A DNA stretch of 64,000 bases, from positions 6,961,501 through 7,025,500 of the forward strand of contig NC_092572.1 of the NCBI RefSeq assembly GCF_037975245.1, written 5' to 3'. The stretch is from Apostichopus japonicus (taxonomy: Eukaryota > Echinodermata > Holothuroidea > Aspidochirotida > Stichopodidae). Below the pieces are notes generated by a model that was given only the letters and a program-made list of their open reading frames with translations, did no database searches and was not told the DNA's origin. Positions 43,201 to 63,320 of this stretch are shown piece by piece; position 1 is the first letter of the stretch; each line of letters begins with the position of its first letter. A program made the position numbers and the translations under genes.

Positions 43201-46200
43201 ATGGAAACGTTTAAAAGATACATAAGACTTATGGAGTGTCACTGAATAACACGTCTTCAAGTTGAGACAGATTTCCTTTTGCATTTCATTTGTCATAATC
43301 TAAATTCTGTGGCATTGGAAGTTAAAGCTGGTAGTTGAGAGTTGTTCATGTTTAGTATTATCTTGGCTATTGTAATTTTTGCTACTAGGTATACAAATAT
43401 GAATGTTTAGATCAAAATTCTGTCCTTCACGATTTTTTTGACAGCCCCTTTTTTAATCTCTTATATCGGATTTCTCATACTCTTTATTATCTTCTGTTAA
43501 GGAACAGAAACAAGGTCAACAAGTAAGAAAATAATGTCATCAAATCTTTTCCTAGAATAGAAACTAAAAACAATTATTCATCATCTGTGATAGGGGTAAA
43601 AAGTGTTATTTCTGACATATTTCTTGCAATTTACATTTTCTTTTTGAACAGATCAGCCTGTCCCCGGGCGAGCGCCTTCCCTTATCAGCAATAGAAACGG
43701 CGTTGTCAGTTTATACCTGAATACAATACCTTTCGTTGGTGATGGCCCGCTTACAAACATGATCGTTGAGTATAAACAGTCCACAAGTCCAACTTGGAGC
43801 AATACAGGGAAACTCCCTCCGAGCACTACTACCTATCGACTGGAGAATTTGAAAGCCGAGACTCAATATGAAGTTAGGGTTGTATTACTACGTCCAGGTA
43901 TCAGAGACGAGGGTCGAGGTGAACCTGGGCCTGTTTTTACCTTCCGAACTCTCTGCTCAGGTAAATCTTATCTTGAACTAAATAGTGAAAGATCCATCTC
44001 ACTGGAGGTCCATTATGACATGTATATATTTAATAATTGACTGCGATGTTTGAGCGAAATAAGGAAAGTTGGATTCTTAATTATATCTCAACAGCTTTTG
44101 CTTACTTGTTTGGTTTCATTTATTGTTATCATTATTGTTGTTTTTAACAACACCTAGTCTCTGGTAGACTATATAGTGAACTCTAGCCAACTTACCCCAT
44201 TTGACATTGCACGCTACCGTGATTACGCAATTCAAAAAATGCCCCTCTCTCTCTTTATACTTAGCGCCATCAAGTTCCGTTGCTCTTCAAGATTTATCGA
44301 CTGTTGGACTAGACTCAACATCTCTACGCATAGAGTGGCAGGTAACAAAAAAAAACTAGCTCGTTCAAAAATTCATTGTCAAATCTCGGAGTTGCCTCCC
44401 GAAAAGGAAGTTCACTCCATGTTCAAATTCTCCAGCAGCATGTGTAGCCTACCTTGTGTAATCAATTGCCTCTGTCACACACCAAAATTCCACTCAAAAC
44501 CTTAGCCCTTTATTGATGTGTTATGAATAAAAAAAAAAACTTCACTCTCTAATAAAGTAACCAACTCGACGTCCTCTGATATGTTTGTCCACTCAGAATC
44601 CTGTCGGACAAGCCTTCGATAGAATCAATATTTACTACCGTTCGGTGGATCAATACGTTTTCGAAGACGTTGAAGTAAATGACGTGTCTGCTACGTCATA
44701 CGTCCTCAGGGGTCTCCAACAGTACCAGACATACGTAGTACAAGTGAAGTTAATGAACTGCGGTTATGAAGGACCAGCCAGTAACACTATGCAAAAGAGA
44801 ACAAAAGAAGGAGGTATGTGGGGCTGCTATTGTTCTTTCTAAATGGCAAATATTGTCACAACAACAACAACCTGTGAATGAACTGTGATTGAAACAAGAT
44901 GGAGAATATATGTTGCTGGTCGGCTGTTAAGTTTAGGAATATGCTGAAAGGAAGAGGATTATTTTAAATGGCAGTATTTGCCATAAAAGCTTTGTTTAAT
45001 ATCAATTTCACATATTTATTACTAAAGCTGGGGGAAAGTAGGTTTTTAACAAATAAATTAGAAATGTTTATACTAAACGATTTATCTTTCAGGCTTAATA
45101 AATAATAAACACATATATGGTGTTCATATGGACGGTTCTCTACTGCCGTTGCCTGCCTTCTACCTACGTGGTACCTTTTCTTCCGTGTCGTTTAAATTAA
45201 ATTGTCTACTGTGAGAATACAGTAATAGTTAATCCAAATATTCCGTATTAAAAATAATTAAATTTGGACCTTAAATCGTACATACAAGTTTCTCTCTTGC
45301 ATTGTTAGAGTAAATCGGATTTTGTAACGGTATAAAAGGTCCCGAAATTGGTTCGAATACATACCATTGTAAATAGCTAATATTTAATCAAACCTTAACT
45401 ACTTGTAGTAAAACGAGAATTTTTCTAACAAACTTGACGGATAATTTTCCTTACTTTCCAGTATTACCAATCATAAAGAAACTAACACTCTATCTAACCC
45501 TCACGTTAATTTAGGAGTGTTAGCTCAGTGGTTAACGCCGGTGCCTTTCAATCATAAGGTCCCCGGTTCGAGTCACTCCCAGATTAATGTCTGTCGTCCA
45601 GTTACAGAGTTGTTGACAATTGACAATCCATAATCATGGACGTTAAATATGAATGTAAGAGACTGACTTCGATCAGCTTCGCGAGTTCCTGCTTGAAGGA
45701 GGATCTAACATACATACATACACACATGAACATATTTCCACACAGTGTTTACACGAATAGCCTAATGATGTTAAGAAGCTATGCAGGCTATTTGTATAGC
45801 CTGAGGTGGATTTACGACCGTGGCAGGTCGATTACGTAATCACAAAACTTTCCTAGCTATAGCGTGCTATATTTGGAGCCAATGAAGCAGATCTTTGACT
45901 ATACGTATTAGAGAACCGCGTTCCTCTATGTCTTTATTTGAAGTGAAGCCCCACGCCTTGGCTTAAAGGGTTTGAAGACTCGTGCACACAGAAACGTCCC
46001 ATGCTGATAATCTGACCTAGTTTCGAATGAGGTGTAAGAGAAGTACTATACATACAGCTACGGTCAATACCCACAACACAGTGTACATAGCAGCGATGGA
46101 CATCTCATGTCTAGATAAAATATCACAAGGTATCACGTCTCATTACCGTCTGCATTTGTAGCGACCAGAAGAAAACTTCGTTTGCAAGCAACGGAAAGTT

Positions 46201-46644
46201 AACTTTTTCAGAGCACGGGACGCGGTTTGGGCGAGTCTTCAATGCCTTTAACCATAGCTTTGACAAGCCTGCAGTGCCCCAAGTATCCCTAGTATTGTCA
46301 ATTACATTATTGCTTATCAAGATCAAATACATATCTACATTAACAACTATGTATACACCTGGCTGTATATTGCTTGATACCATGGTAGCATGCTGTAATT
46401 CACAGACATTCTGTTAAAAGTACATATCACATTAGTATTCGAGTATACTTGGTGAAAATACTCGGTACTCGCATTCGAGAACAGGTACTCGTTATTTGCT
46501 AAGGACGTGTACTTCAAGGGCACTTATATTAAGTAAAAACCGACGTTCTAACAGGAAGCCCCGCTATTTTTCGATCTTTTTGCATGATATATTCTGAACT
46601 CCGTATAATAGCACTATAAGATGAGAATATATGCGTGATGAACT

Positions 46645-46685
<41 letters not shown>

Positions 46686-49600
46686 TAAGAAAAAAAAACT
46701 GTTTAGCTATACCTAGTTTCTGAATGGGTATTGAATATATATAAATATACATATATATTTATATTTATATATATATATATTGTCTCCTTTTGCAGCCCCT
46801 GGGCCCGTGAGAGACTTCCACGTTGATACCATATCACATGATTCTGTGTCTGTTACTTGGCAACGACCGCAGAATGAGAATGGTCTGATTCGATATTACA
46901 ACATCTCAGCTGCCAGATCTCAACCAGGGACCAGTCTATCAGACGTAAAAGTCGAACAGGTGGATCCTAACGAGAGCAGTTACTTAATGACTAACCTCCA
47001 ACCAGCAACCGATTACGTCATATCCATCAGTGCGGTGACGATACTATCGGGTCCAGTGGAATCACAGTCAGTCACGACCAAAGAGTGGTGTAAATGGTTT
47101 TACTTGTTCTTAATTATAATAGTGTAATAGTATAGTACCTTATAGTATTGTATAGTATAGTACAGGTATACACCTTGCTGTATATTGCCTAATACAGTGT
47201 TAGCATGCTGTAATTCACAGACACTCTGTTTAAAGTACACATCGCATTCGGTAATCAACAGTGTTGTAGTACTCGAGTATACTTGGTGAAAATACCCGGT
47301 ACTATAGCATTCGAGTACAGGTACTCGTCATTCAGTCCTGGGAGGTGCATGATAAAGTAATCGTACTTGGTACTCGCTAAGGACGTGTACTTCAAGAGTA
47401 CTTGTATTAACTAAAAGCCGACGTGCTAACAGGAAGCCTCGCCATTTTTCTTGTTTTTGCATGCTATATTCTATATGCTATATTCAGAACTCCGTATAAT
47501 AGCTCTATAATATGAGAATAAATGCGTGATGAACTTGCATATATATATATATATATATATTGTCTCCTTTTGCAGCCCCTGGGCCCGTGAGAGACTTCCA
47601 CATCGATACCATATCACATGATTCTGTGTCTGTTACTTGGCAACGACCGCTGATTGAGAATGGTCTGATACGATATTATAATATCTCGGCTGCCAAGTCT
47701 CAACCAGGGACCAGTCTATCAGACGTAAAAGTCGAACAGGTGGATCCTAACGAGAGCAGTTACAAATTGACTAACCTCCAACCAGCAACCGATTACGTCA
47801 TATCCATCGGTGCGGTGACGGTGCTACCGGGTCCAGTGGAATCACAGTCAGTCACGACCAAAGAGTGGTGTAAATGGTTTTACTTTTTCTTAATTACAAT
47901 AGTGTTATAGTATATTACAGTATAATATAGTGTAGTATACAAACAATGAATGGTATAGGTGCAATAGTGCAAATATTTCACGAGTTGAAAGATGGAATGT
48001 TCCATTTAACCAGGCGAATCCGAGTTGAATGGAACAAATTACATCTTTCAACGAATGGAAACCATTCATTTTTTGTTTTACACAGCACCTTCAAAATTGG
48101 ATATATTTGGATGTAAAATGCACTCATGCAACAGATTGCATGCAATCAACGAGCAATTGACCAATCAAATGACCAGAATACAATTAGGTGTTGTATAATA
48201 TAGTATAGCATACCAATAGTATAGTATAGTTTGGCATACTAATAGTATAGTATGGTATAAGACAATAGTATAATATCATAGTAGAATAGTATAGTGTATA
48301 ATGGTTCAGAGCAACGGTATTGAGCACTTTCGATATATGCTATATATTGTAACGCTACTGGTCCCTTTTGGTGTGGTCGGTCTTTGCCGGGATCCCTGAT
48401 CAGTCCATGTATGCAGCTTTTCTAGGAGGCATTTGTCCTTTACTGATTCCTTGCTCGTTACCAGCTAGTAACAACCCAACGCCAATTAAAAATAACGCTA
48501 ACTTTATCACACAAATCGAAATAAATTAGATTTACACGACTTCTCGCCTCGTCGCCCTGTACGTCAGTGAATCTACACGTGGAAGGTGCCATCTTGGGCT
48601 AATTGTCTGCGAAGGGGAGATGGACAGTTGCCACGCCTAAAATCATGACGTTTGCCTAATTCACTGCTAATAATCACGCACATATGGGAGACTAGTGACC
48701 AATCAGAGTGCTTCGCGCGGGGAAATCCCCGCAGGAAGGAAGCTTGGGTAAATTCCATACGCATGGGCATGGGTGATCATCTGGCCTACTGCCAAAAAAT
48801 CATAAATAATTAATTGGCTGATGCATACAAGCTGAGCGAGAGAGTAAACAACGAGGGATGGAGACCGCTGTCTCGATACAATATTATGGGCATGTATTCT
48901 AAAAGTATTAATAAAACGGTTCTATCAAATTTGTTCTTTCTTGATTTCTATTTATTTTATTTTTTGAACCAACCAGCAGGACTCCAGAGAGAGTGGAACC
49001 GAGTCTTACACAGCACCTCCACCCGTCTCATAAACATCCTCACCAAACACTGACAATCGTCCTTAGATAGCCTCAACGATGATATCTTGAGACTGAAGCT
49101 TGAATTACAGTCATGCTGCACCGATGACGAATGAACTCAGTACACTAACACAATTAATTTGTGTTTGTCTCAGCAGAACATTGAACTCACAGAAAGAAGA
49201 AAATGGTTGACCTTCAGAAAAGACGCGAACGTACCGCTTGCAACCGTTTTAGGAGGCCCCAGACTCCACCTGAGTCTGAGCCACCATCCTCAACTGCAGT
49301 TGTTAACTTATCTTCTTCTACTCTTACCAGTGCAGACCTTAGGCTTCTCTCCAAAGGACTCAACTTCTGTCCTACTCCTCCATCATTTGACCAAGCGGAA
49401 CTGAGCCAAGATGTTACTCATTTCTTTCGCAGAATTCGCCTTCGTGAGTTTTTCCTAGATGAACCTCCTACTGAACGGGTACCCTTCTACAAGAAAAGTT
49501 CTTGGATGCCTTCTAAGAACAGAGTACTCCCTGTTTTAGAAGCTTACACATGTCGTCAGCTCAGAGGCTAACCAGTCAAACTCTCCTCTCCGCAGAACAC

Positions 49601-52600
49601 ACGGCAACCTTCCAAGAGATGAGCGTACGGCACTCTCCCCACTGATGTCTCCCGGTGACATTATCATCAAGCCAGCCGACAAAGGTTCTGCAGTTGTCAT
49701 CCAGGATCGACAGGATTACATCAAAGAAGCTATGCGTCATCTCTCCAACAGCGATATTTACACTCTTCTTGATTCTGATCCCACAGTTATTTTCTCCCAG
49801 CAGATAAAACAGACCATCACTGATTTGTACCAGCGGAACCAGATCTCTAAGAAGGTTGTTTCTTTCCTCCCTTCCACAGACTGTAAGGCAGCCAGGTTTT
49901 ATCTCCTGCCCAAATTTCACAAGCCTGGTAACCCTGGTAGGCCTATCATCTCAGGCAATGGGTCCCCAACCGAGAAGATATCCTTGTTTGTCGACCACTT
50001 CATCAAACCTACCTGTTCCTCAGATTAATTCTTATATCCATGACACTCCAGATTTCCTCAGTAAACTTGAAGATATTAAGAAGCAAATCCCCAGTACAGC
50101 CATTATCGATACTTTCGACGTCGCCTCTCTTTACACTAACATTCTTCGTGCTGAAGGTATCGCAGCAACATGTGCAGCCCTGTCTAAGAAGGTCCACCCT
50201 TGTCCACCCATCTCTGACATCAAAGTTCTCATGCAACAGGTTCTCACCAAAAAACAACTTCATATTCATGGAAGAGCATTACCTTCAAAGACACGGGACT
50301 GCCATGGGAACCAGGATGGCTCCTTCCTATGCATGCCTGTTTATTTGTAACCTTGAAGAACGCATGCTAAGTACAGCTCCCTGCCGTCCTCTTATCTGGT
50401 GGCGCTACATTGATAACATTTTTTCGTTTGGACCAGTGATGAGGATAGCCTGCTCACTTTCATCAATCACATCAATTCTTTCCACAGCACCTTAAAATTC
50501 ACCTCTGATTACTCTCACCAACAGGTTAACTTCCTCGATGTGACTGTTCGCAAGGAACACGGTTCTCTTTCTACAGACTTATACACCAAGCCCGCAGACA
50601 CACACCAGTATCTCCATTCTTCAAACTGCCATCCCCGTCACTTTAAGTCTGGAATTGCCTACAGTCAAGCACTTCGGCTTCGTCGCATTTGCTCTAACAA
50701 TTCCTCTTTCATTCGCCATACAGATGCTTTAGTAAAGCATCTTACTTCCAGGGCCATAGTGCCAGAAGGATGTGTGCAGCCATTCAGAGAGTCCGCTCCC
50801 TTTCCAGATCATCTACTTTGGCAATGAAGGACAAAAAGGGACGAGATTGCGACAACAAGCTGCCCCTGGTTGTTCCTTTCCCCCTCTTCAGAAAATCACC
50901 TCTAACAACCACAATTTTCTCCTCACTTCAGATAGACTCCAACCAGCCGTCCTTGAAAAATCCACCCTCGCCTACAAACGTCCACGCAACCTACGAGACC
51001 TTCTTGTGCGTGCTGCTGTTCCACCTCTAACTTCTAATTCCTCACCCATTCAGCATGGTGCTTTCAAATGTGATCGTACTTCCAGATGCATCGTCTGCAG
51101 CCAACACATTGTTGAATCCAACTCCATCACCAGCCACAGCATGCAACTCACACACAAGACTAAGGGTCACATCACTTGCACTACCAACAATGTCATCTAT
51201 CTAATCTCCTATAGAGATTGCGGCATCCAGTATGTTGGCGAAACCAAAACCACTCCACAACTTTCTGTCTTTGTCCCTCTCCAGTTTATCTCCTACCTCT
51301 TCTCTTCCCTGAAGCTTTCTTCTCTCCATCCCTTGTCGACTTATAATCCCTTTTCATCCATAGTATTGTGTTCACAATGCTCATTGACCTGTCTGTATTC
51401 TGCGCATTTTTTTTTGTTCCTTCTGTTACTGTACTGTGACTTGTCATTTAGCCTCTGAAGAAGATCCTGCTAGGATCGAAACGTCAGGTCAACTTACTTT
51501 TATATATTTATTTTATTATATTTATTTCTTATTTGATTTACTTCTTTATTTTTAATCTGCTTATTCCATAAGGTGGCATTATCCGTCTAATACAATGAAA
51601 ATAATATGATGGAAAGTCTTAAACCATTTTATCATCATATAGGCTATGAAGGTAGACCGGGGAGAGGCAATGTGCTGGGAGGGTAGCATGGGGAAGGGTA
51701 AGTGCCATTGGGGAACAGGTTAGTGCCGTGGTATGTGAGGCTACTCAAGTTCTCTTTCTGGTGGTATGTCTCGTAATTTAAAGTGGCCGAATACACAGGT
51801 TTTTTACTGTTTGTAGATCCATCTGCTGCTCCAACAAATATACGGGGTGAGTCAAGCGAAACAACTCTCACATTCACCTTCGATGAGATTACCGAATCAG
51901 AACGAAACGGAGTCATTCGAATGTACGAAACCAAGCTCCAAGACTCTACGGTAACAAGTAGTGACGTGCCACCAGTCACGCACAACGTTACCCGAGAAAG
52001 GGTAATGTTTGATAAACTAAAGGATGGAACACCGTACATCTTCAATGTGAGAGGATATACATCCGTTGGTCCAGGAGTTTGGAGTAACGATGTTATAGCC
52101 AGTACGGTGCCAGGTAATTTCATATCACTTTGAATCACTTTTGAGTTTTATTTCTAATAGTTTTTGAATACCTATTGTAACGATGAATGTCTATATAGCC
52201 TACATCTGTATTTAATTAGTTTTATTTAACTCTCTCCTCGTTTTCCAGTTTTAAGAGTTATTGCAGTTATGCAAAATTATTGTATGACCGTTGAGCATGA
52301 TGTGTCAGTGATCACAACTTGGGTTACCGCGTTATTAACGGTCACATATTTGAACGTAATGAAAACTATGGGACAAAAATCAGGATTTTAATTGTTTTAC
52401 AAATTTAGCGTTTGGAAATTAAGAAAAAAAAATGTTTTGCTATACCTAATTTCTTGATGGGTATTGAATACATATAAATATACATATATATTGATACATG
52501 TATATATAAATTGTCTCCTTATGCAGGCCCTGGTCCCGTGAGAGAACTTGATGTTCATACCATATCGCATGACTCAGTGTCGGTTACTTGGCAACGACCG

Positions 52601-55600
52601 CAGAATGACAGTGGTCTGATACGGTATTACAATATCTCAGCTGCCAAGTCTCAACCAGGGACCAGTCTAGCAGACGTAAAAGTCGAACGGGTGGATCCTA
52701 ACAAAAGCAGTTACTCAGTGACTAACCTCCAACCAGCAACCGATTACGTCATATCCATCGGTGCGGTGACGATGCTAACGGGTCCAGTGGAATCACAGTC
52801 AGTCACTACCAAAGAGTGGTGTAAATGGTTTTACTTTTTCTTAATTATAGTAGTGTAATAGTCTAGTCTAGCCTAGTAAAGTCTAGTCTAGTCTAAGCTA
52901 ATCTAGTCTAGTGTAGTTTAGTGTAATCTAGTGTAATACAGTTTAGTGTATACAGTACAGTACATGGAAGTACAGTACAGTACCGTACAGAACAGAATAG
53001 TATAGTGCAGTACAGTACAGTGCAGTATAGCATACTAGTAGTATAGTATAAGGCAATAGTATAAGACAATAGTATAAGACAATAGTATAAAAGTGCGGTA
53101 TAATATCAAAATAGAATTTAGTATAGTGTTATTTTCAAAGCAACGGTATGAAACACGTCCGATATTTGCTATATGTTATGGCCATTCGTTCTAAAAATAT
53201 TTATTAAAACGGTTGTTTCACATATTATTACTTTCTAAATTTACACCTCTCTTCTCACTTTACTGGAATATGCCATGGTTACCGAAAAATAACAATGATA
53301 TACTAGTCAGGCTCACTATGTTCAGAATTATAAATTCGTTGGAATTTTTGGGAGATTTGCAAATCTATACATTTTTGGAAACTGTATAGTGTCATCATCA
53401 ATGATCATCAATGATGTATAGTGTAACAAGCAGAAAACCAATGTTTACCATTTGCCGGACACATATATGGCGGCTATCTTTTAACGGCTAAACCTACATT
53501 TGTAGGGGCAAGGAATCTAGTGGTACCAAGTACAATAAGCTAAACGTAACAACACCGCGGTCATCTTGGATTTTCAAAATGGCCGCCTTAAGAATGGGCG
53601 TTTCTCAGTATCTCAACTTCTAGGTGACATAGAGTCCTGGTTTTAACGGCTAAACGAGTTCGAGCTATCAACTCGCCCTACCACTTGTTTTGAAGCCATT
53701 GAAATTATCTAGGTCTTAGTATATTTTAGGCAGTCATAGGTGCCCAAATTTGGAAATGTGGAACTAAATACCGGGATGCATCATCATAACAAGGCAGATC
53801 CTGAAATGCGACCACTACAAGCGCGCTCTCCGTGCCCACATATACTCATATGTAGCACTTTATGAGATGGCACTGGAGGAATTCTTCACAGACAACCCAC
53901 AACTGAAAGACGCCTGTTTGGAAGTAACGGAGGAAGTAGAAGCTGCCTGCACGGAAGGGGAGAAATGTACGAAGGCCGAATCCCTGAAAGAAGCCAACAC
54001 CACGCTCCTTCAAGCCATGACCACTGCTGACAGACATTCAAGGACTGGGAGACTGATAGATCGAAGAATGCCATGTTCAAATCAATGATGAACTACATAC
54101 ACCGAGTAGAGACGGTCCTGTTCTTCGTGGCAGCATTCAGGAATGCTGACCTTGCGCTCCATCTCGAAGCTGGAGAAGCACTGAGCAAGATGTTCTTTGC
54201 TATGGACCGAATCAAGTACAAGCGACTCTGGCCCCGATACATCGCAGACATGTATGACCTGAGAACCAACCACCCCAACACCTGGAAGGAACTGGAAGCT
54301 GGTAACATATTCGTCACCAAGAACGAGATCCCGTTGGTATCTGTTGGAGCAGGCCACGCATGCGAACATCTGAACAAGCAGATGAAGGTTCGTGCTGGAC
54401 ATTGGCATCTCCAACAACGCCAACGCCAACGCCAACGCCGGACAGAGGTTCTTCATGGCGGCACCAGAACTGTCGTGCCTGTCAAATGAGTTCAGAAGTC
54501 AGTTTGATGCGGAAGTTGGCAAGGCCACAGAGCACCATGACCTTGGACCAAGTGCAGTCAAGAGGGATCATGACGCAATCGACAAAATCAAGGCTGCGCT
54601 CCTGGGTCATGGCAATCCATTTGCCACCGGAGGTGACCAGCTACACAATCTTATCACTCATGCCTACATTCCAGACGAGTACGTGCCACAGATCATGAAC
54701 ATTGACGCCACTGGGCAGAAGTTGTATAAAGAGAACGTGTCAGAGCGAATCAATGGGGACGTCAGCTGTGGGCACTAGTGAAGGAACAGAACAACAAGAT
54801 ATCTGGCAACAAGAAAGCCAGTGTGAAACTCTGTGACAAGACTGTAGACCTGAAGGAGACCAAGGATCTCTACGGAAGGCTAATGGTCCTTGCCAGCTCC
54901 AACCGAGACATTGATCTGAAACAAGCCATCGGGAACTACGAGTTCACGTTGACACCGAGGGCACTGTTCGCGCCAAACCGAGTAATGCTGCCATGCACTG
55001 ACAAGTCAAAGTTGATCCACCTCCTTGAGAAGTTGGGAACAGCAGAACCACCCGATGACGATCAGCAGCAGTTGCAAGATGCAAGTGGTCTGCAGCGCGA
55101 CGCAGTGGATTCTGAAACCATTGACTTCACACACACTGAGGGTGACACAAATCGCAAGATCGCACTGGTGGACGGTATGGTGGTCGTGCAGAAGCTGACA
55201 AAGAAACCAGCCACGGTAGTGACAGTCAAGGACCTTAGTGAATGCTTCAATGCCAGACTGATGTCTCTGAGAAGAGACTGTGATGAGATCATTCTGATGT
55301 TTGATACTTACAAGGCTGACACCCGGAGAGTACCACAAGAGAAAAACGGAGACAAGGGAAGGATCCGGTCCAATATCAGATCAGAGATGGCACCAGCATC
55401 AAACACATCCCGATGAGCCGGATCCTTTCCGATGACAAGACGAAGGCAGATCTGATTGAGTATCCGGCAGTAAGAACCCTGGAGTACAACAAAGACTCGT
55501 CCAAGTTGGTCATCACATCGGCCTCAGGACATACTACAGGCAACAACGCACTGCCCTGAGGACAACAACCATGAAGAGGCGGACACACTGCTGATCCACC

Positions 55601-57371
55601 AGGCAGTGCTGGCATCACAGCGCAACCCACCTGATGCAGAGTTAGTTGTCTTTTTTCCAGACACAGATGTCCTGGTGCTGGTCATAGCCAATAATGACCT
55701 GCTGCTGAGGAAAACGTTCATGTCGGTGGCCTCCGGAGTGATCCAAGTGCAACCAGTATGGACAGCTCTAGGTCCAGAAAAAGCAAAGGCTTTGCCAGCC
55801 TTCCACGCATTTTCGGGGGCAGAAAACACTGGGAGGTTCTCTCGTATAGGCAAGGCAACCTGGCTGCAAGTCTACCTAAAAGCAGACGGAGAAGTCGTCA
55901 AGGCTTTGCAGATGCTTTCAGATGCCACTGAAGTCACCGACGACCTGCTCTCTAGGTTGGCTGCATTAGTTTCTGCTGCATACTCACCAAAGGGCTTGCA
56001 GATTGCAAGCATCCCCGAGCTGCGATGGCATCTGTTCTGCAAGCATATGGCTGACAGTGACAAGCTGCCTCCCACCCCCGGTGCTCTCAAGCAGCACATC
56101 CTCCGAGTCCAGAGCCTAAACATAGTATGGGGTCAGACAAGCGTTGCTCAGCAGCAGTTCCTGGATTCTCTGAAGCACGGCTAGTACAAAGATACAAGTG
56201 GTCAGGTTAAGCCACTCACTACTGAGGTGCTCCCAGCCCCCAAGGCCATCATCAAGATGATGAGATGCCAGTGCAGAGCCGACTGTTCTACAGCTCGATG
56301 TTCTTGCAGGTTTAATAACCTATCGTGTACAGACCTCTGCCAGTGCGGCACTCAGTGTCAGAATGATGATGACTCTAGGAATGACATATTGTTGGCTAGT
56401 GACCATGATGATGATGAGTGAGAGTACTAGCTGAAGATCATGATGATGGTCCCTGCCCTTGAAGTTTAATGATAAACAATTATCATCGTCGGAAGTGTAA
56501 TCTCTTAGTCATTCAGATCATCTACTATCATCTACATCTGTTATCATGTTTAGCCTATTGCACTTGGTGTCAATGGATTCCTCACCCCTACAAATGTAGT
56601 TTACCCGTTAAAATCAGGACTCTGGGTCCCCTAGATGTTGAGATATTGAGAAACATCCATTTTTAAAGCGGCCAATTTGAAAATCCAAGATAGCCGCCAT
56701 ATATGCGTCCGGCAAATAGTAAACATTGGTCTTCGGATTGCTTACACTACACAGTTTCCAAAAATGTATAGGTTTGCAAATCTTCCGAAAAATCCAACGA
56801 AATAACATAATGAGCCTGACTATACTGGTAAGGCTTATTTTCTGGTGGTATGTCTGGAAATTTAAAGTGGCCTAATATTCAGGTTTTATACTGTTTGTAG
56901 ATCCATCTGCTGCTCCAACAAATATACGGAATGAGTCAAGCGAAACAACTCTCACTTTCAACTTCGATGAGATTGCCGAGTCAGAACGAAACGGAGTCAT
57001 TCGAATGTACGAAACCAAGCTTCAAGACTCTACGGTAACAAGTAGTGACGTGCCACCAATCACGAAAAACGTTACCCGAGAAATGGTAATGTTTGATAAA
57101 CTGAAGGACGGAACAGAGTACATCTTCATTGTGAGAGGATATACATCCGTTGGTCCAGGAGTTTGGAGTAACGATGTTATAGCCAGTACGAAGCCAGGTA
57201 ATTTTAAATCACTTTGAATCACTTTTAAGTTTCATTTCGTTTTTGAATAACTATTGTAACGATGAATGTCTATATAGCCTTCATGTGTATTTAATTATAT
57301 TTTTTTAATTCTCTCCTCGGTTTCCAGTTTTAAGGGTCATTGCAATTATACTATATGTAGTATAGCAGCTG

Positions 57372-57408
<37 letters not shown>

Positions 57409-59132
57409 ATAGTAATTTAATAAAGAATAACACACCATAAAAAAAATATATATATATATATATATGTAAATATATATAAATATATATATATATTAATATA
57501 TATTAATATATATATATTGTCTCATTATGCAGGCCCTGGTCCCGTGAGAGATCTTCAATTTTCTACCATATCGCATGACTCAGTGTCTATTATTTGGCAA
57601 CCACCGCAGAATGAGGAGGCTATTATAATATATTACAACATCTCAACTACCAGGTCTCAACCAGGCACCAGCCTATCAGTCGTAAAAGTCGAACAGGTGG
57701 ATCCTAACGAGAGCAGTTACTCAGTGACTAACCTCCATCCAGGAACCGATTACGTCATATCCATCAGTGCGGTGACGATGGTAACGGGTCCAGTGGTATC
57801 AAAGTCAGTCACGACAAAAGAGTGGAGTAAATGGTTTTACTTTTTTAAATTATAATAGTGTAATAGTATGTTATAGTAAAGTGTAGTAAAGTATAGTTTA
57901 GTTTAGTATAGTTTAGTGTAGTATAGTGTAGTATAGTTTAGTATAGTATAGTATAGTATAGTGTAGTATAGTGTAGTGTAGTATAGTATAGTATAGTGTA
58001 GTGTAGTGTAGCCAGTTTATCGGTAAAACGTCAATTTCTTTTAATTTTGTCATTTTGACGACTTGTTGTATCTCGGCAAAACGTCAATTTTCAAAATGTT
58101 GTCATTTTGACGACTTGGTGTGTCTCGGCAAAACGTCAATTTTAAAAATTTTGTCATTTTGACGACTTGTTATATCTCGGCAAAACGTTAATTTTTAGAA
58201 TATTGCCATTTTGACGAGTTTGTTTCTCTTTCATCATCATGTTCAACGCTTCCGTAAGTAAGCATCATTCGTGCTTATCTTAATTTAAGAGGTTAGGGTG
58301 GGGGAGGCGTGTTAATACAAAGACTATTTTTGTGTTTTTTGTTCGATATATTTGAAAGTCTACTTAAATGAACCTTGTAGTTCTTGTACTCTCAATATAA
58401 TGACCAGTTGACTATGATCAACGGAAACCGACTTGACACAATGGGCAAATTCACACGGCCAAACGTGGCCTAATCACTTTTTTTATTTATTTCTATTTTT
58501 CTTTTGTTATATTTATATATTATTTTATTTACTTCTTTATTTTCAATCTGCTTATTCCAAATGGTGGCATTATCCGTCTTGAATACAATCAAAATAATAT
58601 AATAGAAAGTCTTAAACCATTATATCATCATTTCCGCTTTTTATCTTCGCATCACGAGGCTATGAAGGTAGACCGGGGAGAGGCAATGTGCTGGGAGGGT
58701 AGCATGGGGAAGGGTAAGTGCCATTGGGAAACGGGTTAGTGCCGTGGTATGTGAGGCTACTCAAGTTCTCTTTCTGGTGGTATGTCTCGAAATTTAAAGT
58801 GGCCTAATATTCAGGGTTTTTTTTACTGTTTGTAGCTCCATCTGCTCCTCCTACAAATATACGGGCTAAGTCAACCAAAACAACTCTCACTTTCACCTTC
58901 GATGAGATTGCCGAGTCAGAACGAAACGGAGACATAAAAACGTACGAAACCAAGCTCCAAAACTTTCCGGAAACAAATAGCGACGTGCTACCACTCACGC
59001 AATACGTTACCCGAGAAAGGGTAAAGTTTAAGGACCTGACGCCAGCAACACCGTACATCATCCGTGTGCGAGGATGGACATCCGTTGGTCCAGGAGTTTG
59101 GAGTATAGGCGTTGTAGCCAGTACGAAGCCAG
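28229..59132 (+). CDS. TIE-like receptor tyrosine kinase, ectodomain part (19 exons; C-terminus off window)
   Basis: Nineteen exons join in one frame (4237 nt, 1412 codons): 28229-28280, 29665-29952, 32216-32467, 34646-34780, 36000-36137, 36644-36772, 36950-37068, 37945-38119, 42713-42991, 43652-43960, 44265-44341, 44597-44813, 46796-47089, 47576-47869, 51817-52113, 52527-52820, 56901-57197, 57533-57826 and 58836-59132. All junctions are phase 1 except two phase-0 introns inside the split Ig and FN3 domains. The order is signal peptide, Ig, Ig, EGFx3, Ig-type, Ig, FN3x9. Ig-Ig-EGFx3-Ig-FN3 is the TIE (angiopoietin receptor) plan; vertebrate TIEs have three FN3 domains and an ectodomain about half this long. 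TIE-type genes are known in some invertebrate deuterostomes. The transmembrane and kinase exons are not in the window, so the family name is inference from domain order; another Ig/EGF/FN3 receptor remains possible. Confidence 0.6.
28458..28800. mobile_element. MITE family with long TIRs (copy 2), in TIE-like intron 1
   Basis: The ends are ATAGCACGCTATAGCTAGG and, inverted, GCGTGCTATAG. The interior closely parallels the element at 26857-27195 (AGCCTGCATAGTTTC, ACAAAGACCCTCATAC, GGCAGGTCGATTACGTAATC). The rest of this intron shows no recognised feature. Confidence 0.7.
29665..29952 (+). CDS. TIE-like exon 2: Ig domain 1
   Basis: The exon is 288 nt, phase 1-1. Ig landmarks are VITC (strand B), LILWRV (strand C Trp) and RYGAFYC (strand F). 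It carries N-glycosylation sequons (NST, NVT). The donor is GTATGT. Confidence 0.75.
30071..30655. mobile_element. hAT-type MITE, 585 bp, 8-bp TSD TGTAACCA
   Basis: The TIRs are TGCAGGGGCGGACTGG and, inverted, TGCAGTGGCGGACTGG. TGTAACCA flanks both sides exactly (30063-30070, 30656-30663). No transposase was seen; it lies in TIE-like intron 2. Confidence 0.8.
30664..32215. other. Rest of TIE-like intron 2
   Basis: An open reading frame at 31098-31394 has no recognisable domain and no splice context. Nothing else was recognised. Confidence 0.35.
32216..32467 (+). CDS. TIE-like exon 3: Ig domain 2 lacking its cysteine pair
   Basis: The exon is 252 nt, phase 1-1, with acceptor TCTATTTGTAG and donor GTAAGT. 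The fold signature is clear: EAIWTK for strand C and [12 protein letters not shown] for strands E-F. But strand B reads VQILMTF without Cys, and the DxGxYxC position is Ala. Both disulfide cysteines are missing together, so this is a real variant rather than random decay. Confidence 0.7.
32538..32978 (+). mobile_element. hAT-type MITE, 441 bp, 8-bp TSD CTATCTTA
   Basis: The TIRs are CAGTGGCGTAGGAA and, inverted, CAAGGGCGTAGGAA. CTATCTTA flanks both sides (32530-32537, 32979-32986). It is inverted relative to the copy at 26342-26711 and contains an internal direct repeat (ATGCAATTTGGTGC appears twice). Confidence 0.8.
33640..34620 (+). repeat. Minisatellite, unit about 29-31 bp (CATAGCACTGCACTACACTG)
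   Basis: Some 25 units built from CATAGCACTGCACTACACTG plus AACTGCACCC run from about 33880 to 34610. A more degenerate CTGAACTGA-rich lead-in begins near 33650. The array ends only about 25 bp before the first EGF exon. Confidence 0.85.
34646..34780 (+). CDS. TIE-like exon 4: EGF domain 1
   Basis: The exon is 135 nt, phase 1-1: [16 protein letters not shown], then [20 protein letters not shown] and GYRC. The cysteine spacing is EGF/laminin-type. The acceptor is CTGTTTTAG and the donor GTAAGC. Confidence 0.85.
36000..36137 (+). CDS. TIE-like exon 5: EGF domain 2
   Basis: The exon is 138 nt, phase 1-1: [14 protein letters not shown] ... [13 protein letters not shown]. The EGF cysteine framework and closing GWTGPTC are clear. 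The donor is GTAAGT. Confidence 0.82.
36644..36772 (+). CDS. TIE-like exon 6: EGF domain 3
   Basis: The exon is 129 nt, phase 1-1: [16 protein letters not shown], then [18 protein letters not shown] and GEFC. The donor is GTGAGT. Confidence 0.85.
36950..38119 (+). CDS. TIE-like exons 7-8: Ig-type domain 3 (split, phase-0 intron)
   Basis: The two exons are 36950-37068 and 37945-38119. The first encodes [13 protein letters not shown] and [14 protein letters not shown]; the second encodes [14 protein letters not shown] and [12 protein letters not shown]. Strand B and F cysteines are recognisable. The domain is divergent, with extra cysteines. The donor of the first exon is weak (GAG|GTTAGC), and it is the least certain border in the gene. 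Confidence 0.6.
38270..41240 (-). mobile_element. Penelope-like retroelement, antisense, decayed
   Basis: Minus-strand fragments carry typical Penelope-like motifs: [11 protein letters not shown] (40148-39960), SLYTNVPH (near 39670), WWRYIDNIF (near 39400), [15 protein letters not shown] (near 39220), and a C-terminal GIY-YIG endonuclease segment [16 protein letters not shown] (near 38560). Frameshifts and stops interrupt it. Terminal (pLTR-like) pieces lie at both ends: 38283-38340 in minus orientation, and near 41088-41240 a minus-oriented piece followed by a plus-oriented one. It lies in the 4.6-kb intron between Ig-type domain 3 and the next Ig exon. Confidence 0.85.
38303..38340 (-). ncRNA. 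Hammerhead-like motif of the Penelope element
   Basis: On the minus strand a TTGAAGA core is followed by GATCCT, loop GCT and AGGAT, then TGAAACGTC. This resembles the hammerhead self-cleaving motifs reported in Penelope-like terminal repeats (CUGANGA, stem II, GAAA). One core base differs from consensus, so activity is doubtful. Confidence 0.4.
41241..42712. other. Rest of the intron before Ig domain 4
   Basis: The sequence is AT-rich with a C/T-rich patch at 41280-41380. No coding or repeat unit was recognised. Confidence 0.4.
42713..42991 (+). CDS. TIE-like exon 9: Ig domain 4
   Basis: The exon is 279 nt, phase 1-1: [23 protein letters not shown] and [16 protein letters not shown]. This is a classical Ig exon with both cysteines, the last before the FN3 region. 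It corresponds in position to the third Ig of vertebrate TIEs. The donor is GTAAGT. Confidence 0.8.
43652..43960 (+). CDS. TIE-like exon 10: FN3 domain 1
   Basis: The exon is 309 nt, phase 1-1: [26 protein letters not shown] and [11 protein letters not shown] are FN3 strands C to G. The donor is GTAAAT. Confidence 0.82.
44265..44813 (+). CDS. TIE-like exons 11-12: FN3 domain 2 (split by phase-0 intron)
   Basis: Exon 44265-44341 encodes [12 protein letters not shown] and SLRIEWQ; exon 44597-44813 encodes [27 protein letters not shown] and [11 protein letters not shown]. The halves meet right after the strand-B Trp, a common FN3 intron site. The donor is GTATGT. Confidence 0.78.
45514..45712 (+). 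mobile_element. tRNA-derived SINE
   Basis: The head (45514-45580) looks like a tRNA gene: A box TAGCTCAGTGG and B box GGTTCGAGTCA, with a nearly pairing acceptor stem (GGAGTG...CACTCC). The D and anticodon arms do not fold well, so it is a SINE head rather than a working tRNA. A non-tRNA tail follows and ends in CATACA repeats. Confidence 0.6.
45733..45895. mobile_element. Partial copy of the 26857-27195 MITE family
   Basis: It includes ATGCAGGCTATTTGTATAG, GGCAGGTCGATTACGTAATC and the end CTAGCTATAGCGTGCTATA. Only one half of the element is present. Confidence 0.6.
45963..46251. mobile_element. MITE with TTAA borders, inverted copy of the 25803 element
   Basis: TTAAAGGGTTTGAAGACTCG at the left and GCGAGTCTTCAATGCCTTTAA at the right, less one base, border it. 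The interior matches the reverse complement of 25803-26170 (for example GTGTACATAGCAGCGATGG against CCATTGCTGTTAGGTACAC). Confidence 0.7.
46796..47089 (+). CDS. TIE-like exon 13: FN3 domain 3, type A copy 1
   Basis: The exon is 294 nt, phase 1-1: [52 protein letters not shown] and SQSVTTKEW. The donor is GGT|GTAAAT. A hand count gives 9 differences in 98 residues from copy 2, about 91 percent identity. Confidence 0.85.
47576..47869 (+). CDS. TIE-like exon 14: FN3 domain 4, type A copy 2
   Basis: It has the same length, phase and splice sites as copy 1, exactly 780 bp downstream. Exon and flanking introns are both duplicated, so the unit is a recent tandem duplication. Confidence 0.85.
47870..48974. 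other. Intron after A copy 2, before the Penelope insertion
   Basis: TATAGTA-type simple repeats lie near 47905-47940 and 48190-48300. The segment containing GCAACGGTAT...CGATATATGCTATAT (48310-48350) and AATAAAACGGTT (48910) recurs in the intron after A copy 3 (53150-53215), so intron sequence was copied with the exon. No coding signal was seen. Confidence 0.5.
48975..51500 (+). mobile_element. Penelope-like retroelement, sense, 5' truncated and decayed
   Basis: The fragments in order are an N-terminal region (49203-49571, [20 protein letters not shown]), [13 protein letters not shown] (from 49645), [18 protein letters not shown] (49900), [18 protein letters not shown] (50310), WWRYIDNIF (50400), [15 protein letters not shown] (50580), and a truncated GIY-YIG part, [16 protein letters not shown] (51200). 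Private breaks include a 1-nt deletion near 49550 and an indel near 50010-50025. It starts about 260 bp inside the antisense copy's 5' limit and ends in a hammerhead-like hairpin. It lies in the intron between FN3 domains 4 and 5. Confidence 0.88.
51450..51490 (+). ncRNA. Hammerhead-like ribozyme motif at the Penelope 3' end
   Basis: CTGAAGA (51455-51461, fits CUGANGA) is followed by A, a perfect 6-bp hairpin GATCCT/AGGATC with loop GCT, then GAAA (51478-51481) and CGTC. GCCT before the core can pair with AGGT after CGTC as stem I. Penelope-like elements are known to carry such minimal hammerheads with a tiny stem III. One extra A after the core departs from consensus. Confidence 0.5.
51817..52113 (+). 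CDS. TIE-like exon 15: FN3 domain 5, type B copy 1
   Basis: The exon is 297 nt, phase 1-1: [47 protein letters not shown] and [14 protein letters not shown]. The acceptor is TTACTGTTTGTAG and the donor GTAATT. About 190 bp of upstream intron (from 51630) is homologous to that before B copy 3. Confidence 0.83.
52527..52820 (+). CDS. TIE-like exon 16: FN3 domain 6, type A copy 3
   Basis: The exon is 294 nt, phase 1-1: [37 protein letters not shown] and [14 protein letters not shown]. The splice sites are as in other A copies (donor GTAAAT). Confidence 0.85.
52855..53110. repeat. TAGTCTAGT / TACAGTACAG simple repeat
   Basis: A low-complexity stretch follows A copy 3. Related TAGTATAGT tracts follow A copies 1, 2 and 4 (47110-47160, 47905-47940, 57850-58015), so the repeat is part of the duplicated unit. 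Confidence 0.75.
53304..56824 (+). mobile_element. DNA transposon with long TIRs, about 3.5 kb, in TIE-like intron
   Basis: The left arm (from GTCAGGCTCACTATGTT at about 53306) and the inverted right arm (GTCAGGCTCATTATGTT at 56820) match with few changes through ATTTGCCGGAC, ATATATGGCGGCTATCTT and beyond, over some 250-380 bp. The left arm has about 90 extra bp that look like a local duplication (TTTAACGG(C/G)(T/)AAAC and TACATTTGTAGGGG recur). Adjacent TATACTA and TATACTG may be the target-site duplication. Degraded plus-strand ORFs fill the centre. Confidence 0.75.
53867..56421 (+). pseudogene. Broken transposon-borne gene: PIN/XPG-like segment and CXC-type cysteine tail
   Basis: Reading frames in order (53867-54088, 54073-54390, 54392-54765, 54766-55380, 55606-56184, 56227-56421) look like one protein broken by frameshifts; for example the frame changes near 54765 inside a continuous family-like segment. 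Recognisable parts are [19 protein letters not shown]; an acidic beta-strand motif [16 protein letters not shown], recalling PIN/XPG-like nucleases; [20 protein letters not shown]; and a C-terminal [14 protein letters not shown]...[11 protein letters not shown] tail similar to tesmin/TSO1 CXC motifs. From memory, similar multi-copy proteins are predicted in many marine invertebrate genomes. The enzymatic role is not established here. Confidence 0.6.
56901..57197 (+). CDS. TIE-like exon 17: FN3 domain 7, type B copy 2
   Basis: The exon is 297 nt, phase 1-1, nearly identical to B copy 1 ([52 protein letters not shown]). It lies 76 bp after the transposon's right end; the acceptor region survives intact. 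Confidence 0.83.
57360..57525. repeat. (TA)n microsatellite before A copy 4
   Basis: Long TATATA runs extend to the pyrimidine tract (TGTCTCATTATGCAG) of the next exon. Similar TA runs precede A copies 1 and 2. Confidence 0.85.
57533..57826 (+). CDS. TIE-like exon 18: FN3 domain 8, type A copy 4
   Basis: The exon is 294 nt, phase 1-1: [37 protein letters not shown] and [14 protein letters not shown]. It is the most diverged A copy. The donor is GGA|GTAAAT. Confidence 0.83.
58021..58230 (+). repeat. Four-unit tandem repeat, about 52 bp, CGTCAATTTT...CATTTTGACG
   Basis: Units start near 58021, 58073, 58126 and 58178 (C-GGCAAAACGTCAATTTT, then TTGTCATTTTGACGACTTG). Each unit carries inverted CGTCAA/TTGACG words. 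It is the same family as 4930-5165 on the other strand. Confidence 0.85.
58836..59132 (+). CDS. TIE-like exon 19: FN3 domain 9, type B copy 3
   Basis: The exon is 297 nt, phase 1-1: [34 protein letters not shown] and [17 protein letters not shown]. It is the most diverged B copy. The donor is CAG|GTAATT, so the gene continues past this exon; no later exon was found before the right edge. Confidence 0.82.
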
Positions 59133-59508
59133 GTAATTTCATATCACTTTGTAGCACTCTGAGTTTTATTTAGTTTTTGAATACCTATTGTAACGGATGA
59201 ATGTCTATATAGCCTTCATGTATATGTAACTAGTTTTATTTAATTCTGTCCTCGGTTTCCAGTTTAAGGAGTCATTGCAGTTATGCAAGATTATTGTATG
59301 TCCCATGATGGTGTCAGTGACCACAACTTGGGTTACCACGTTACTAACGGTCACATAATTGAGCGAAATTGAGTTGGTTAGCATCATGTTTGATCTCTAG
59401 AGTAAGGCAAAATATGTCACCAAAAACAGAACTAGTATTGTTCGATACAGGTGTCGAACGCCTACAGTGAAATTACGACCTTCATTACCGGTTTCGAACC
59501 TCTGGATA

Positions 59509-59582
59509 TACAATCAGCGTCCATAACCTAGTTGGCTAGGATGTCTGCATACAAAGCCCGGGCTCGAATCCCGGTGGAGGCT
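59509..59582 (+). mobile_element. tRNA-like SINE head
   Basis: An A-box-like TAACCTAGTTGGCTAGG and B box GGCTCGAATCC are spaced as in a tRNA. The acceptor stem is not convincing, so a SINE fragment is more likely than a tRNA gene. Confidence 0.4.
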
Positions 59583-59629
59583 GGAAGTTTTTTCACTGTT
59601 CTGAATTTTCCCTCTCATGGTGTTTACAA

Positions 59630-59649
59630 TTATATATATATATAAATAA

Positions 59650-59746
<97 letters not shown>

Positions 59747-59757
59747 TATAGATATAT
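59630..59757. repeat. (TA)n microsatellite
   Basis: About 120 bp are almost pure TA. ORFs across it are meaningless. Confidence 0.95.
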
Positions 59758-59759
59758 AC

Positions 59760-60410
59760 TGTGCGTTACTATACTGTACACTACATTGTACTGTACCGTA
59801 CTATACTTTACTGTACTGTACCGTACAATGCTTTTTTTGTGTACCGTACTTTAATGTACGTTACTATACTTTACTGTACCGTACCGCACTGTACTGTACC
59901 ATACTATACTTTATTGTAATTGTACTCTACTGTACCGTCCTGTACTGCACCGTACAATACTTGTTTGTACTGTACTGTACCGTACTGTACCGTACTGTAA
60001 TGTACTGTACGCTACTATACTTTACTGTACTTTACCGCACTGTACTGTACTGTACCGTACCATACTTTACTGCACTGTACTGTACCGTACTATACTTTTT
60101 TGTACTCTACTGTATCGTACTGTTATGTACTATACGTTACTATACATGTACACTGCATTGTACTGTACCGTATTATACTTTACTGTACTGTACCGTACAA
60201 TACTTTTTTGTACTGCACTGTACCGTACTGTAATGTACTGTACGCTACTATACATTACTGTAAAGTACCGTACTATACTTTACTGTACTGTACTGTACTA
60301 TACTTTATTGTACTTTACTGTACCGTACTGTAATGTACTATACGTAACTATTATGTACTGTACTGTACCGTACCGTACTGTACTGTACTGTAGAATACTC
60401 TCCAATACAT
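59760..60410. repeat. Satellite rich in GTACTGTACCGTACTATAC
   Basis: Imperfect units with TACTGTACCGTACTATACTT repeat for 650 bp. Long ORFs reading YCTVLYRTV are artefacts of the repeat. Confidence 0.9.
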
Positions 60411-61281
60411 AAAACGTAGGTACGGTATCATTTGAATATGTAAACTATATTTCATAATCTATATTGTATTTGGAGACTCAATGAAGCTATTAGACACATC
60501 GAGACTGAAATATGAGAAACTTGACTCTTTCGTCGAATTTTTGGGTAAGGATATACCCTTATGATATTCTCAAAAATTTCGACCAAAATCACGACTTTCT
60601 CAAATTTCAACCGATGCGGAAAAGGGATGGAACTTTTTGAGTTGACATCAGGGTATTGCATTTGGAGACGAAAATTGAGCAGGATTTCACACATTTACCT
60701 AAAAAGTAACGTATTTGTATACTTCTTGATAAACGATTTAGTGATTGTAATATGTTAAGAAGGGTAAGTATGTAGATTAGCATACATATTCATATATTGC
60801 TCCAATTGACTATTCACTCTTAAGATCAAGAAGTGGTCAAAATAATGCAGACATGTAGAAGTTCTCACTGTGTAAAATGCTACATAACGGATAGCCGACA
60901 CTCTGGCGAGTCATTTTACTTTACAAAGATCAGGTAAATATTTAGCAACTATTTAAGAGCCCATAATATGATCGCCACATGTGAACAAGCCTCTTTATTC
61001 ACCAGCAAACAGATTTTAATAAGTTGCTCTTAGAATGAGGCCTAAATATGCACTTTGACATCCAAGTTTCAAACAATCCTGTTCGATAACATATCGACAA
61101 GAAAAGTTGTTCACACTCCTGTTTCCTTTCTTTTTTACCCCATTTCCAAACACTTATGCGGATTGTTATATGGGTTATGTATGATATTTGTCATCATACA
61201 CAAGGCATTGAAAGCGTCTTGTGTGTGTTTATTCAGAACATCCACACAGAGACATGCATAAAAAAGGTAACTTATTCCATG

Positions 61282-61479
61282 TTGGGACAATTTTTTATAT
61301 ACTGTAGTGTTATGTCTCGCTTCAGAGCACTCGTATTGTCAGTACGAGCAGTATGAATATCATGTTTTCTATCAGATCAAGGTTAGGAACTGTTTGTTCT
61401 GACAATACCATAGTGCTTTGAGAACATGATATTGGAGTACAGTTTAAGATAGGTTATTAGCATTAAGAAATTGTCCCAA
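61282..61479. mobile_element. Small inverted-repeat element (MITE-like), 198 bp
   Basis: The ends TTGGGACAATTTTTTA and (inverted) TTGGGACAATTTCTTA match. Further inverted matches lie inside (AGCACTCGTATTGTCAG against CTGACAATACCATAGTGCT). No target-site duplication was seen. Confidence 0.55.
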
Positions 61480-61769
61480 CTGGCTGTAATCCTTACCGAT
61501 AATACATGCATATTCATTAATACGACCTGCTCGATACAACCAAATGCTGGTGCCATAAATATTGTAAAGACATGTTAAAATAAAACGAAATAATTCAAAT
61601 ATGTCGATCCTTTTTCTAGATTTACGAGTATATGTGAGGTTTGTTTATGTCATAATGGCGTCGTCGAACTGTTCATCCAGAAATCGGACTGCAATCCCAT
61701 CAGATATACCACGTGACACAAATAGTTTGTATGTTTTGAGTTTTGCGCACTTTTTTATTAAGTCTAAGG

Positions 61770-62095
61770 TAAGTGTAAAAGTACAAAAGGGCTCTGACGT
61801 ATCAATTCCTGCCAGGATCTTCTTCAGAGGTTTTACTCTTGACACATTCATCACTTTTACATATTCATTAATTTTACATATTCATTACGTTTACACATTC
61901 ATTACTTTTACATATTCATTACTCTTACATATTCATTACTTTTACACATTCGTTACTTTTACATATTCATTACTTTTACATAATACACATTCATTACTTT
62001 TACACATTCATTACTTTTACATATTCATTTCTTTTACACATTCATTACTTTACAACATTCTTTTACACAGGCTCTGTAGTGAATAAGCAGTTTTG
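61770..62095 (-). mobile_element. Penelope-element terminal relic expanded into a minisatellite
   Basis: Near 61795-61830 the minus strand has CTCTGAAGAAGATCCTGG, the Penelope hammerhead arm. Near 62065-62095 it has the terminal phrase CTTATTCACTACAGAGCCTG seen near 38260 and 41095. Between them about fifteen units of TTTTACA(C/T)ATTCATTAC (about 17 bp) lie in tandem, derived from the element's ATGTGTAAAAGTAA. Confidence 0.7.
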
Positions 62096-63184: not shown

Positions 63185-63320
63185 GGCGTCAGCAGGTTTC
63201 AGAAAGTGAGGGGGACACTATACTCTCTAAGCGGAGCGCTACCATTGGTTGGCGCGTAGCGTACCAGAAAATTTTGGGTACATAAGACCCCCTAGATCGC
63301 AGGAGACGGCCTTCCTGAGT
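63185..63320 (-). mobile_element. Partial copy of the GCGCCAAC / GGCGCTCCGC family
   Basis: CTAAGCGGAGCGCTACCA then GGTTGGCGCGTAGCGTACCA, inverted relative to the modules at 23780, 24355 and 25060. The left end GGGCGTCAGCAGG may be its terminus. Confidence 0.55.

Follow-up and report, generated by a model that had tools for sequence, protein, structure and literature searches.

The window, by which we mean the whole 64,000-nucleotide stretch of DNA that was analysed (C12:6961501-7025500, C-numbers being contig labels), belongs to a genome of 671.6 Mb in 35 contigs. Its + strand carries a gene that runs from a predicted signal-peptide exon at 28229-28280 through exons in the order Ig1-Ig2-EGF1-EGF2-EGF3-Ig3 to nine FN3 domains, the last of which ends at 59132. 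When the 16 exons from Ig1 to the final FN3 exon, B3, are joined, they yield 1,295 codons with neither stop nor frameshift; all splice dinucleotides are intact and all the introns between these exons are in phase 1, save for a phase-0 intron within the second FN3 domain, F2. The tRNA and Rfam scans returned no match.

Exon anatomy and TIE descent

The signal-peptide exon, one of three candidates in a scan, would encode 17 residues and ends in phase 1; its start codon and GTGAGT donor are also present in alpha (fetched stretch L022, ~5970-6021), one of the two other TIE genes of this genome described below. It is followed on the same strand by Ig1 (29665-29946), Ig2 (32216-32467), EGF1 (34646-34780), EGF2 (36000-36137), EGF3 (36644-36772) and Ig3 (42713-42991), all of them recognised by their match to Tie2. 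EGF1 was also found by Pfam search, which additionally gave an Ig_Tie2_1 match in Ig1 (E=0.0021; 18.8 bits, under the cut-off of 25) and an I-set match in Ig3 (23.8 bits against a cut-off of 23.7), with no Pfam Ig match above the cut-off in Ig2. The FN3 part starts with F1, a single exon (43652-43960; fn3, 31.9 bits), and continues with F2, whose first half, F2a (44265-44341, phase 0 at its end), and second half, F2b (44597-44813), score 45.3 bits together. The remaining FN3 domains are single-exon cassettes of two types: A1 (46796-47089), A2 (47576-47869), B1 (51817-52113), A3 (52527-52820), B2 (56901-57197), A4 (57533-57826) and B3 (58836-59132), which is the last exon found. A further exon candidate at 37945-38119 was dropped because its beginning does not match the phase of EGF3.

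The preliminary description had called the gene TIE-like, and this holds for the ectodomain: the TIE descent of this part is well supported, since its Ig/EGF portion matches human Tie2 structures at E=6e-56, continuously over residues 5-401 of a 404-residue query. The order of the domains is also that of vertebrate TIE1 and TIE2, namely Ig-Ig-EGF-EGF-EGF-Ig followed by FN3, and F1 and F2 can be aligned with FN3 domains one and two of Tie2. When F1-F2-A1 is compared with Tie2 FN3 structures, E=8e-14 is obtained, with higher scores for tyrosine phosphatase receptors, titin and fibronectin. An A cassette lengthens the Tie2 alignment weakly (55.1 bits with A1, 55.0 with A4), and with B3 the score is 51.9 bits and the aligned range stops in the first residues of that cassette. 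Taken as single families, A and B give their best scores against fibronectin and RPTP structures, with Tie2 outside the best 60 structure matches of either family, and for this reason no one-to-one pairing of A or B with a particular Tie2 FN3 domain is claimed.

Vertebrate TIE receptors have three FN3 domains, while the window gene has nine, and alpha and beta, the other two TIE genes, have four each. Vertebrate TIE1 and TIE2 differ further in their transmembrane helix and cytoplasmic tyrosine kinase; in the window gene as assembled, neither was found by searches with alpha's exons and with kinase motifs. On these grounds, the gene is best classed as a member of the TIE family by the descent of its ectodomain and, as assembled, not as a receptor kinase. 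Ig2 is the part through which TIE receptors bind their angiopoietin-type ligand, and that of the window gene is 65% identical to that of alpha over 83 codons.

Two other frames of the window have their own matches. The one at 19279-19659 (+) matches mitochondrial ribosomal protein S30 (PDCD9; 32.2 bits, cut-off 25), and the one at 1392-1703 (-) resembles an immunoglobulin V-set (21.6 bits against a Pfam cut-off of 26) and perhaps belongs to another gene.

Alpha, beta and the growth of the FN3 array

Alpha lies at C2:~2.45-2.49 Mb and beta at C2:~2.54-2.56 Mb, with their matches to the B exon at 2478485(+) and 2547710(-), respectively. In the stretches that were fetched, alpha reads Ig3-F1-F2-A-B, with one A and one B and thus four FN3 domains, followed 2.4 kb past B by a transmembrane exon (a hydrophobic stretch, judged by eye) and then by kinase exons with the motifs HRDLAARN, DFGLS and WMAIES. 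In beta, the fetched stretches hold Ig3, F1, F2 (second half tested), one A, one B and then, ~5.3 kb past B, a transmembrane exon, followed by kinase exons. Beta was compared from EGF3 on, and for EGF2 by genome census alone, Ig1, Ig2 and EGF1 being outside the comparison; both kinases were read in part, short of their ends. The exon order is therefore common to the three genes over the parts compared, and the difference lies in the four A and three B of the window gene and in the transmembrane and kinase exons of alpha and beta.

The resemblance to alpha goes beyond the exons. The window copy and alpha are collinear with gaps, introns included, from window position ~22036, before the signal exon, to 59354, past B3, and we regard the window gene as a collinear duplicate of alpha. 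The K4 kinase exon of beta is 97% identical to that of alpha, while their transmembrane exons are 34% alike (E=6e-4). By contrast with K4, the A, B, F1 and Ig3 exons of beta are only 49-62% identical to those of the window copy, and because of this difference the TIE ectodomains appear to evolve far faster than the K4 exon.

The preliminary description had read seven consecutive phase 1-1 exons of 294 nt (A) and 297 nt (B), in the order A-A-B-A-B-A-B after two other FN3 domains, between 46796 and 59132. This proved exact to the base, and the total of nine FN3 domains, counted from the exon structure as F1, F2 and the seven cassettes, is likewise right. Each cassette exon is bounded by an AG acceptor and a GT donor and is in phase 1 at both ends. 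Pfam fn3 was found above its cut-off in all six of the nine FN3 domains that were submitted (F1, F2, A1, A4, B1 and B3; 31.9-51.3 bits against 25), and A2, A3 and B2 were assigned by their 84-91% protein identity to A1 or B1. At the DNA level, the A copies are 84-94% and the B copies 83.5-94% identical to each other, and the six within-type exon pairs that were aligned, from nine such pairs, are all free of gaps, while gaps occur in 9 of 12 comparisons of their flanks. The high identity of the copies as DNA and the gap-free pairs mean that the array is not a product of chance, and, with the diverged flanks and the readable junctions (see below), they are the grounds on which chance or artefact is rejected as its source.

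The growth of the array by duplication of exons in symmetric phase, also proposed in the preliminary description, is supported most strongly by the single A and single B in the fetched stretches of alpha and beta and by the count of B exons over the whole genome: there are five matches at E<=1e-5 (38 scored), three in the window gene and one each in alpha and beta. No further or broken cassette copy was found in the window (tblastn at a loose E, best 40 pieces per query) or in the next 80 kb past it. F1 has three close loci in the genome, which are the three TIE genes, and five weak matches at 38-40% identity. The comparison with the three FN3 domains of vertebrates, which had served as the baseline for this growth, needs a correction: the array did grow, but its starting point in this genome is four FN3 domains (F1-F2-A-B) and not three. 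A similar growth, with one phase-symmetric exon for each extra FN3 domain, is known from the tenascins; according to PMC1578592, an FN3 domain encoded by one exon was repeatedly duplicated in tenascin-W, as in the window gene, although tenascin-W is a matrix protein in which one FN3 type was multiplied and not an alternating A-B series in a TIE ectodomain.

The order in which the copies arose can be approached from trees rooted on alpha, which are (((A1,A2)96,A3)62,A4) for the A exons, with weak support (62) for the node joining A3, and ((B1,B2)92,B3) for the B exons. These trees agree with each other, and each is compatible with an array that began with the pair A4-B3 and gained A3-B2 and A2-B1 afterwards, with A1 as a single addition. 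The multiplied unit was largely the A-B pair, plus that single A. Additionally, the 300 nt upstream of each A copy were compared with alpha's introns, with (TA)n masked and shuffled sequences reaching maxima of 22-29. The sequence upstream of A2 matches only the intron before A in alpha (score 239; shuffled maximum 25), while those upstream of A3 and A4 match only the intron after B (141 and 68; shuffled maxima 29 and 22). Upstream of A1, the junction at 46486-46795 (+) is chimeric and matches both introns in two separate blocks (pre-A 148 and post-B 41; shuffled maximum 22): 46486-46642 corresponds to alpha's pre-A intron and 46699-46734 (46683-46780 unmasked) to its post-B intron; (TA)n tracts separate the two blocks and also follow them. 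At the junction upstream of A3 (52208-52526, +), the post-B match reaches within 15 nt of the exon, and for both A1 and A3 the post-B match extends into an AT-rich tract that directly precedes the exon, and stops there. In A4, ~185 nt of AT-rich sequence separate the post-B match from the exon, and the joint is located approximately. These matches point to copies joined at or near (TA)n tracts, which would fit either unequal exchange or template switching between the tracts.

Mobile elements sit between some of the cassette copies. Related retroelement stretches are present at 49185-51490 (+) and 38257-40220 (-), and their frames resemble Penelope-like elements in their motifs, among them a GIY-YIG-like end; two pieces taken from the + copy were without a Pfam match at 0.01. 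In the intron between A3 and B2, another element (53304-56822) has diverged terminal inverted repeats (pieces 69-86% identical) and several frames, five of which were without a Pfam match at 0.01.

The 3′ end of the gene and its interpretation

The preliminary description saw in the gene a receptor whose stalk had been lengthened, and it had named a downstream region without a kinase as the outcome that would tell against this. Such a region is what follows B3 in the window and the next 80 kb, where alpha's transmembrane, juxtamembrane/K1, K3, K4 and K5 exons have no significant counterpart; the receptor reading is consequently unsupported, and the long-stalk receptor is rejected on account of these missing counterparts. 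The weak matches to alpha's transmembrane and kinase exons (E 0.12, in a transposon-like element, and E 0.66, in repeat-rich intron DNA) are both on the opposite strand. Five kinase motifs are absent from both strands of the next 80 kb, and no kinase was detected at E<=1 when 59133-64000 was scanned with Pfam in its forward frames, all three of them. Over the whole genome, in a kinase census that consisted of one exon, alpha's K4 (HRD/DFG) exon has two places at E<=1e-9 (135 scored), which are alpha and beta. The collinear homology to alpha ends at 59354, 222 nt past B3, and farther on only dispersed repeats match.

How the transcript ends can be predicted in part. Retention of the intron after B3 would add 13 residues before a stop codon at 59171-59173, giving a hypothetical 3′ end with a short open tail (59133-59173, +), and the single AATAAA/ATTAAA site between 59133 and 61500 is an AATAAA at 59645. 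The ectodomain without anchor or signalling domain that is expected of a secreted decoy is thus seen as a lack of alpha-type transmembrane and kinase exons combined with a 3′ end that is predicted only. A (TA)n tract and then a short-unit satellite occupy 59631-60450, just past the truncation point at 59354.

We consider it likely that the window gene is a dispersed TIE duplicate truncated at its 3′ end, which would encode a kinase-less and probably secreted ectodomain with an FN3 array grown from A and B exons. According to this explanation, a TIE gene would have been duplicated with its signal peptide and complete ectodomain (Ig1-Ig2-EGF1-3-Ig3-FN3), and the exons for the linker, the transmembrane segment and the kinase would have been lost from the duplicate. 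Its two final FN3 exons, A and B, would have been copied on the spot, for the most part in A-B pairs, until there were four A and three B, the joints lying in or close to (TA)n tracts; as the exons are phase 1-1, every copy would add an FN3 domain and leave the reading frame unbroken. All seven cassettes would be spliced in together, and the product, probably secreted, would terminate shortly past B3 or in another exon, although a novel exon farther downstream might supply a transmembrane segment. The non-signalling role of such a protein might be to bind a TIE ligand or partner, either as a soluble decoy or as a matrix-like adaptor with a long multi-FN3 arm. The extra FN3 domains could add length or self-contacts, because in human Tie2 the membrane-proximal FN3 domains mediate dimerisation that is independent of ligand (PMC8560823).

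A precedent for decoy action is DAF-2B of C. elegans, presented in PMC13421766 as a truncated, secreted, non-signalling receptor ectodomain that acts as a decoy. The likeness lies in the truncated ectodomain, the decoy action of the window gene being inferred only, and the difference is that DAF-2B is an isoform of the receptor's own gene, while the window copy is a separate gene. TIE genes have been described in sea urchin (SpTie1/2 and SpTie-like), starfish (a putative Tie-2-like gene) and oyster. Within the literature searched, which covered the decoy and truncation angle narrowly and subscription papers thinly, no separate TIE gene is reported that lacks a kinase and has a multiplied FN3 series. 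TIE genes in sea urchin, starfish and oyster, duplication of single-exon FN3 domains and secreted truncated receptors are known already, and what is apparently new is a separate kinase-less TIE gene with expanded FN3. If this reading is true, a gene that combines the ligand-binding part with multiplied FN3 domains and has no kinase would be naturally suited to regulate the TIE pathway in soluble form, and it would illustrate how an ectodomain can be freed from its receptor through segmental duplication. The steps of stalk growth are directly traceable, since alpha, beta and the window copy share one genome and the junctions are still readable.

Splicing, selection and alternative readings

Not all the cassettes need be present in each transcript. 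The donors of the A exons score -1.66, against a mean of 4.72 for nine non-cassette exons, although the Ig1 donor is also weak (0.01) and the splice matrix is a vertebrate-like one. Additionally, none of the seven cassettes has G at donor position +5, which is found in six of the nine other exons, and at position -1 the A exon of alpha has G where the four window copies have T or A. The weak A donors mean that some cassettes may be skipped, and as all seven are phase 1-1, the gene might give rise by alternative splicing to proteins of variable stalk length rather than to one nine-FN3 form. According to PMC1578592, most tenascins studied are alternatively spliced, tenascin-W with its duplicated single-exon FN3 being among the family. 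Against this, the cassette copies are not independent of each other and the B donors are normal (4.55). Alternative splicing of the cassettes is a tentative possibility, somewhat short of an even chance, and it is compatible with the truncated, probably secreted duplicate that we prefer.

A second alternative is that the window gene is a free-standing, secreted TIE ectodomain gene, which arose by duplication without the kinase and is under diversification, with an expanded FN3 arm that is spliced to variable length and under positive selection. Its product would then tune the TIE signal in soluble form or take part in coelomic recognition. Behind it stands the comparison of B3 with B1, which differ more in the exon (49/297; 16.5%) than in the flanking introns (47/554; 8.5%; p=6e-4). 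The other pairs are not significant in this direction: B2-B3 goes the same way (p=0.052), A3-A4 gives p=0.46, and B1-B2 (p=0.052) and A1-A2 (p=0.021) go the opposite way, and in all of these comparisons the flanks are the BLAST-alignable ones, which biases them toward similarity. A codon test for positive selection gave omega 1.71 for B1/B2/B3, not different from 1 (p=0.13), and 0.55-0.80 for the four A triples (p 0.08-0.49). Positive selection on the cassettes is thus suggestive only, and a diversifying gene of this kind seems rather unlikely.

The rate of change in the rest of the gene bears on whether it works at all. The window copy has no stop in its 3,882 nt of coding sequence, and its silent divergence from alpha is ~17%, therefore ~8.5% per branch; in neutral simulations, divergences of 3%, 7% and 8.5% produce on average 4.5, 10 and 12 stops, respectively. 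The dN/dS ratio against alpha is 0.79 for Ig3+F1+F2, 1.04 for Ig1+Ig2 and 0.74 for the EGFs, none of which differs from 1, while EGF2 appears constrained (omega 0.18, p=0.034, as one of five exons tested and uncorrected). In a three-gene test over 304 codons (Ig3, F1, F2b and EGF3), omega was 0.21 on the deep branch to beta and 0.93 on the window and alpha branches together, and equality of all branches was rejected (p=5e-7). Neither omega=1 on the window branch (p=0.25) nor equality of window and alpha (p=0.19) was rejected in this test; alpha's own branch had 0.50, and the value of 5.4 on the window branch is unreliable because this branch is very short (0.013). The open frames, together with ratios near 1 against alpha and 0.21 on the older branch, suggest that frames have been kept while the protein sequence evolves rapidly in the window copy, in alpha or in both.

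A dN/dS near 1 against alpha would also suit the decay of a dying copy, and the gene might be a duplicated, unexpressed pseudogene whose exons are relics. The loss of its 3′ part and the non-rejection of omega=1 on its own branch go with this reading, which would stay compatible with the data if function was lost very recently. It is opposed by the 16 intact exons, for which between 4.5 and 12 stops would be expected neutrally at 3-8.5% divergence, by the constraint on EGF2, with the restrictions given above, and by the broken cassettes that were looked for and not found in the window among the best 40 tblastn pieces per query. We judge a pseudogene to be improbable.

Far less credit is due to the reading that the gene is a functional TIE receptor, with its transmembrane and kinase exons at a distance of more than 85 kb or split from the rest by a misjoin near the repeats at 59.6-60.4 kb. 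The (TA)n tract and short-unit satellite just past B3 are places where assemblers can err, but the transmembrane exon is only ~2.4 kb past B in alpha and ~5.3 kb in beta, the collinear homology to alpha stops at 59354, ahead of the repeat block that begins at ~59631, and the only two places of alpha's K4 in the genome are each in another gene, so that we hold this reading to be very improbable. Least credible of all is a spurious multiplication of the cassettes through haplotypes joined in error. A1 and A2 do start 780 bp apart, and their exons are 94% identical, but the DNA on either side of them is 10-13% different and has upstream indels, the divergence of other pairs reaches 20%, some copies are separated by mobile elements, and the junctions are readable and different.

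Some other regions of the genome resemble parts of these genes. In the search with EGF2, the close loci were three, the window's included, and there were 61 weaker matches of 42-56% identity, many of them clustered at C16 ~14-20 Mb and C2 ~26-29 Mb, which possibly represent a large TIE-like or multi-EGF family. Partial matches to the kinase family PF07714, many of them alike, form local clusters on C17, C18, C19 and C21 among the matches listed, which do not include even alpha. Finally, a very long run of FN3 on one strand extends over C23:15068877-15124715, part of it with near-equal scores and a spacing of ~510 bp.
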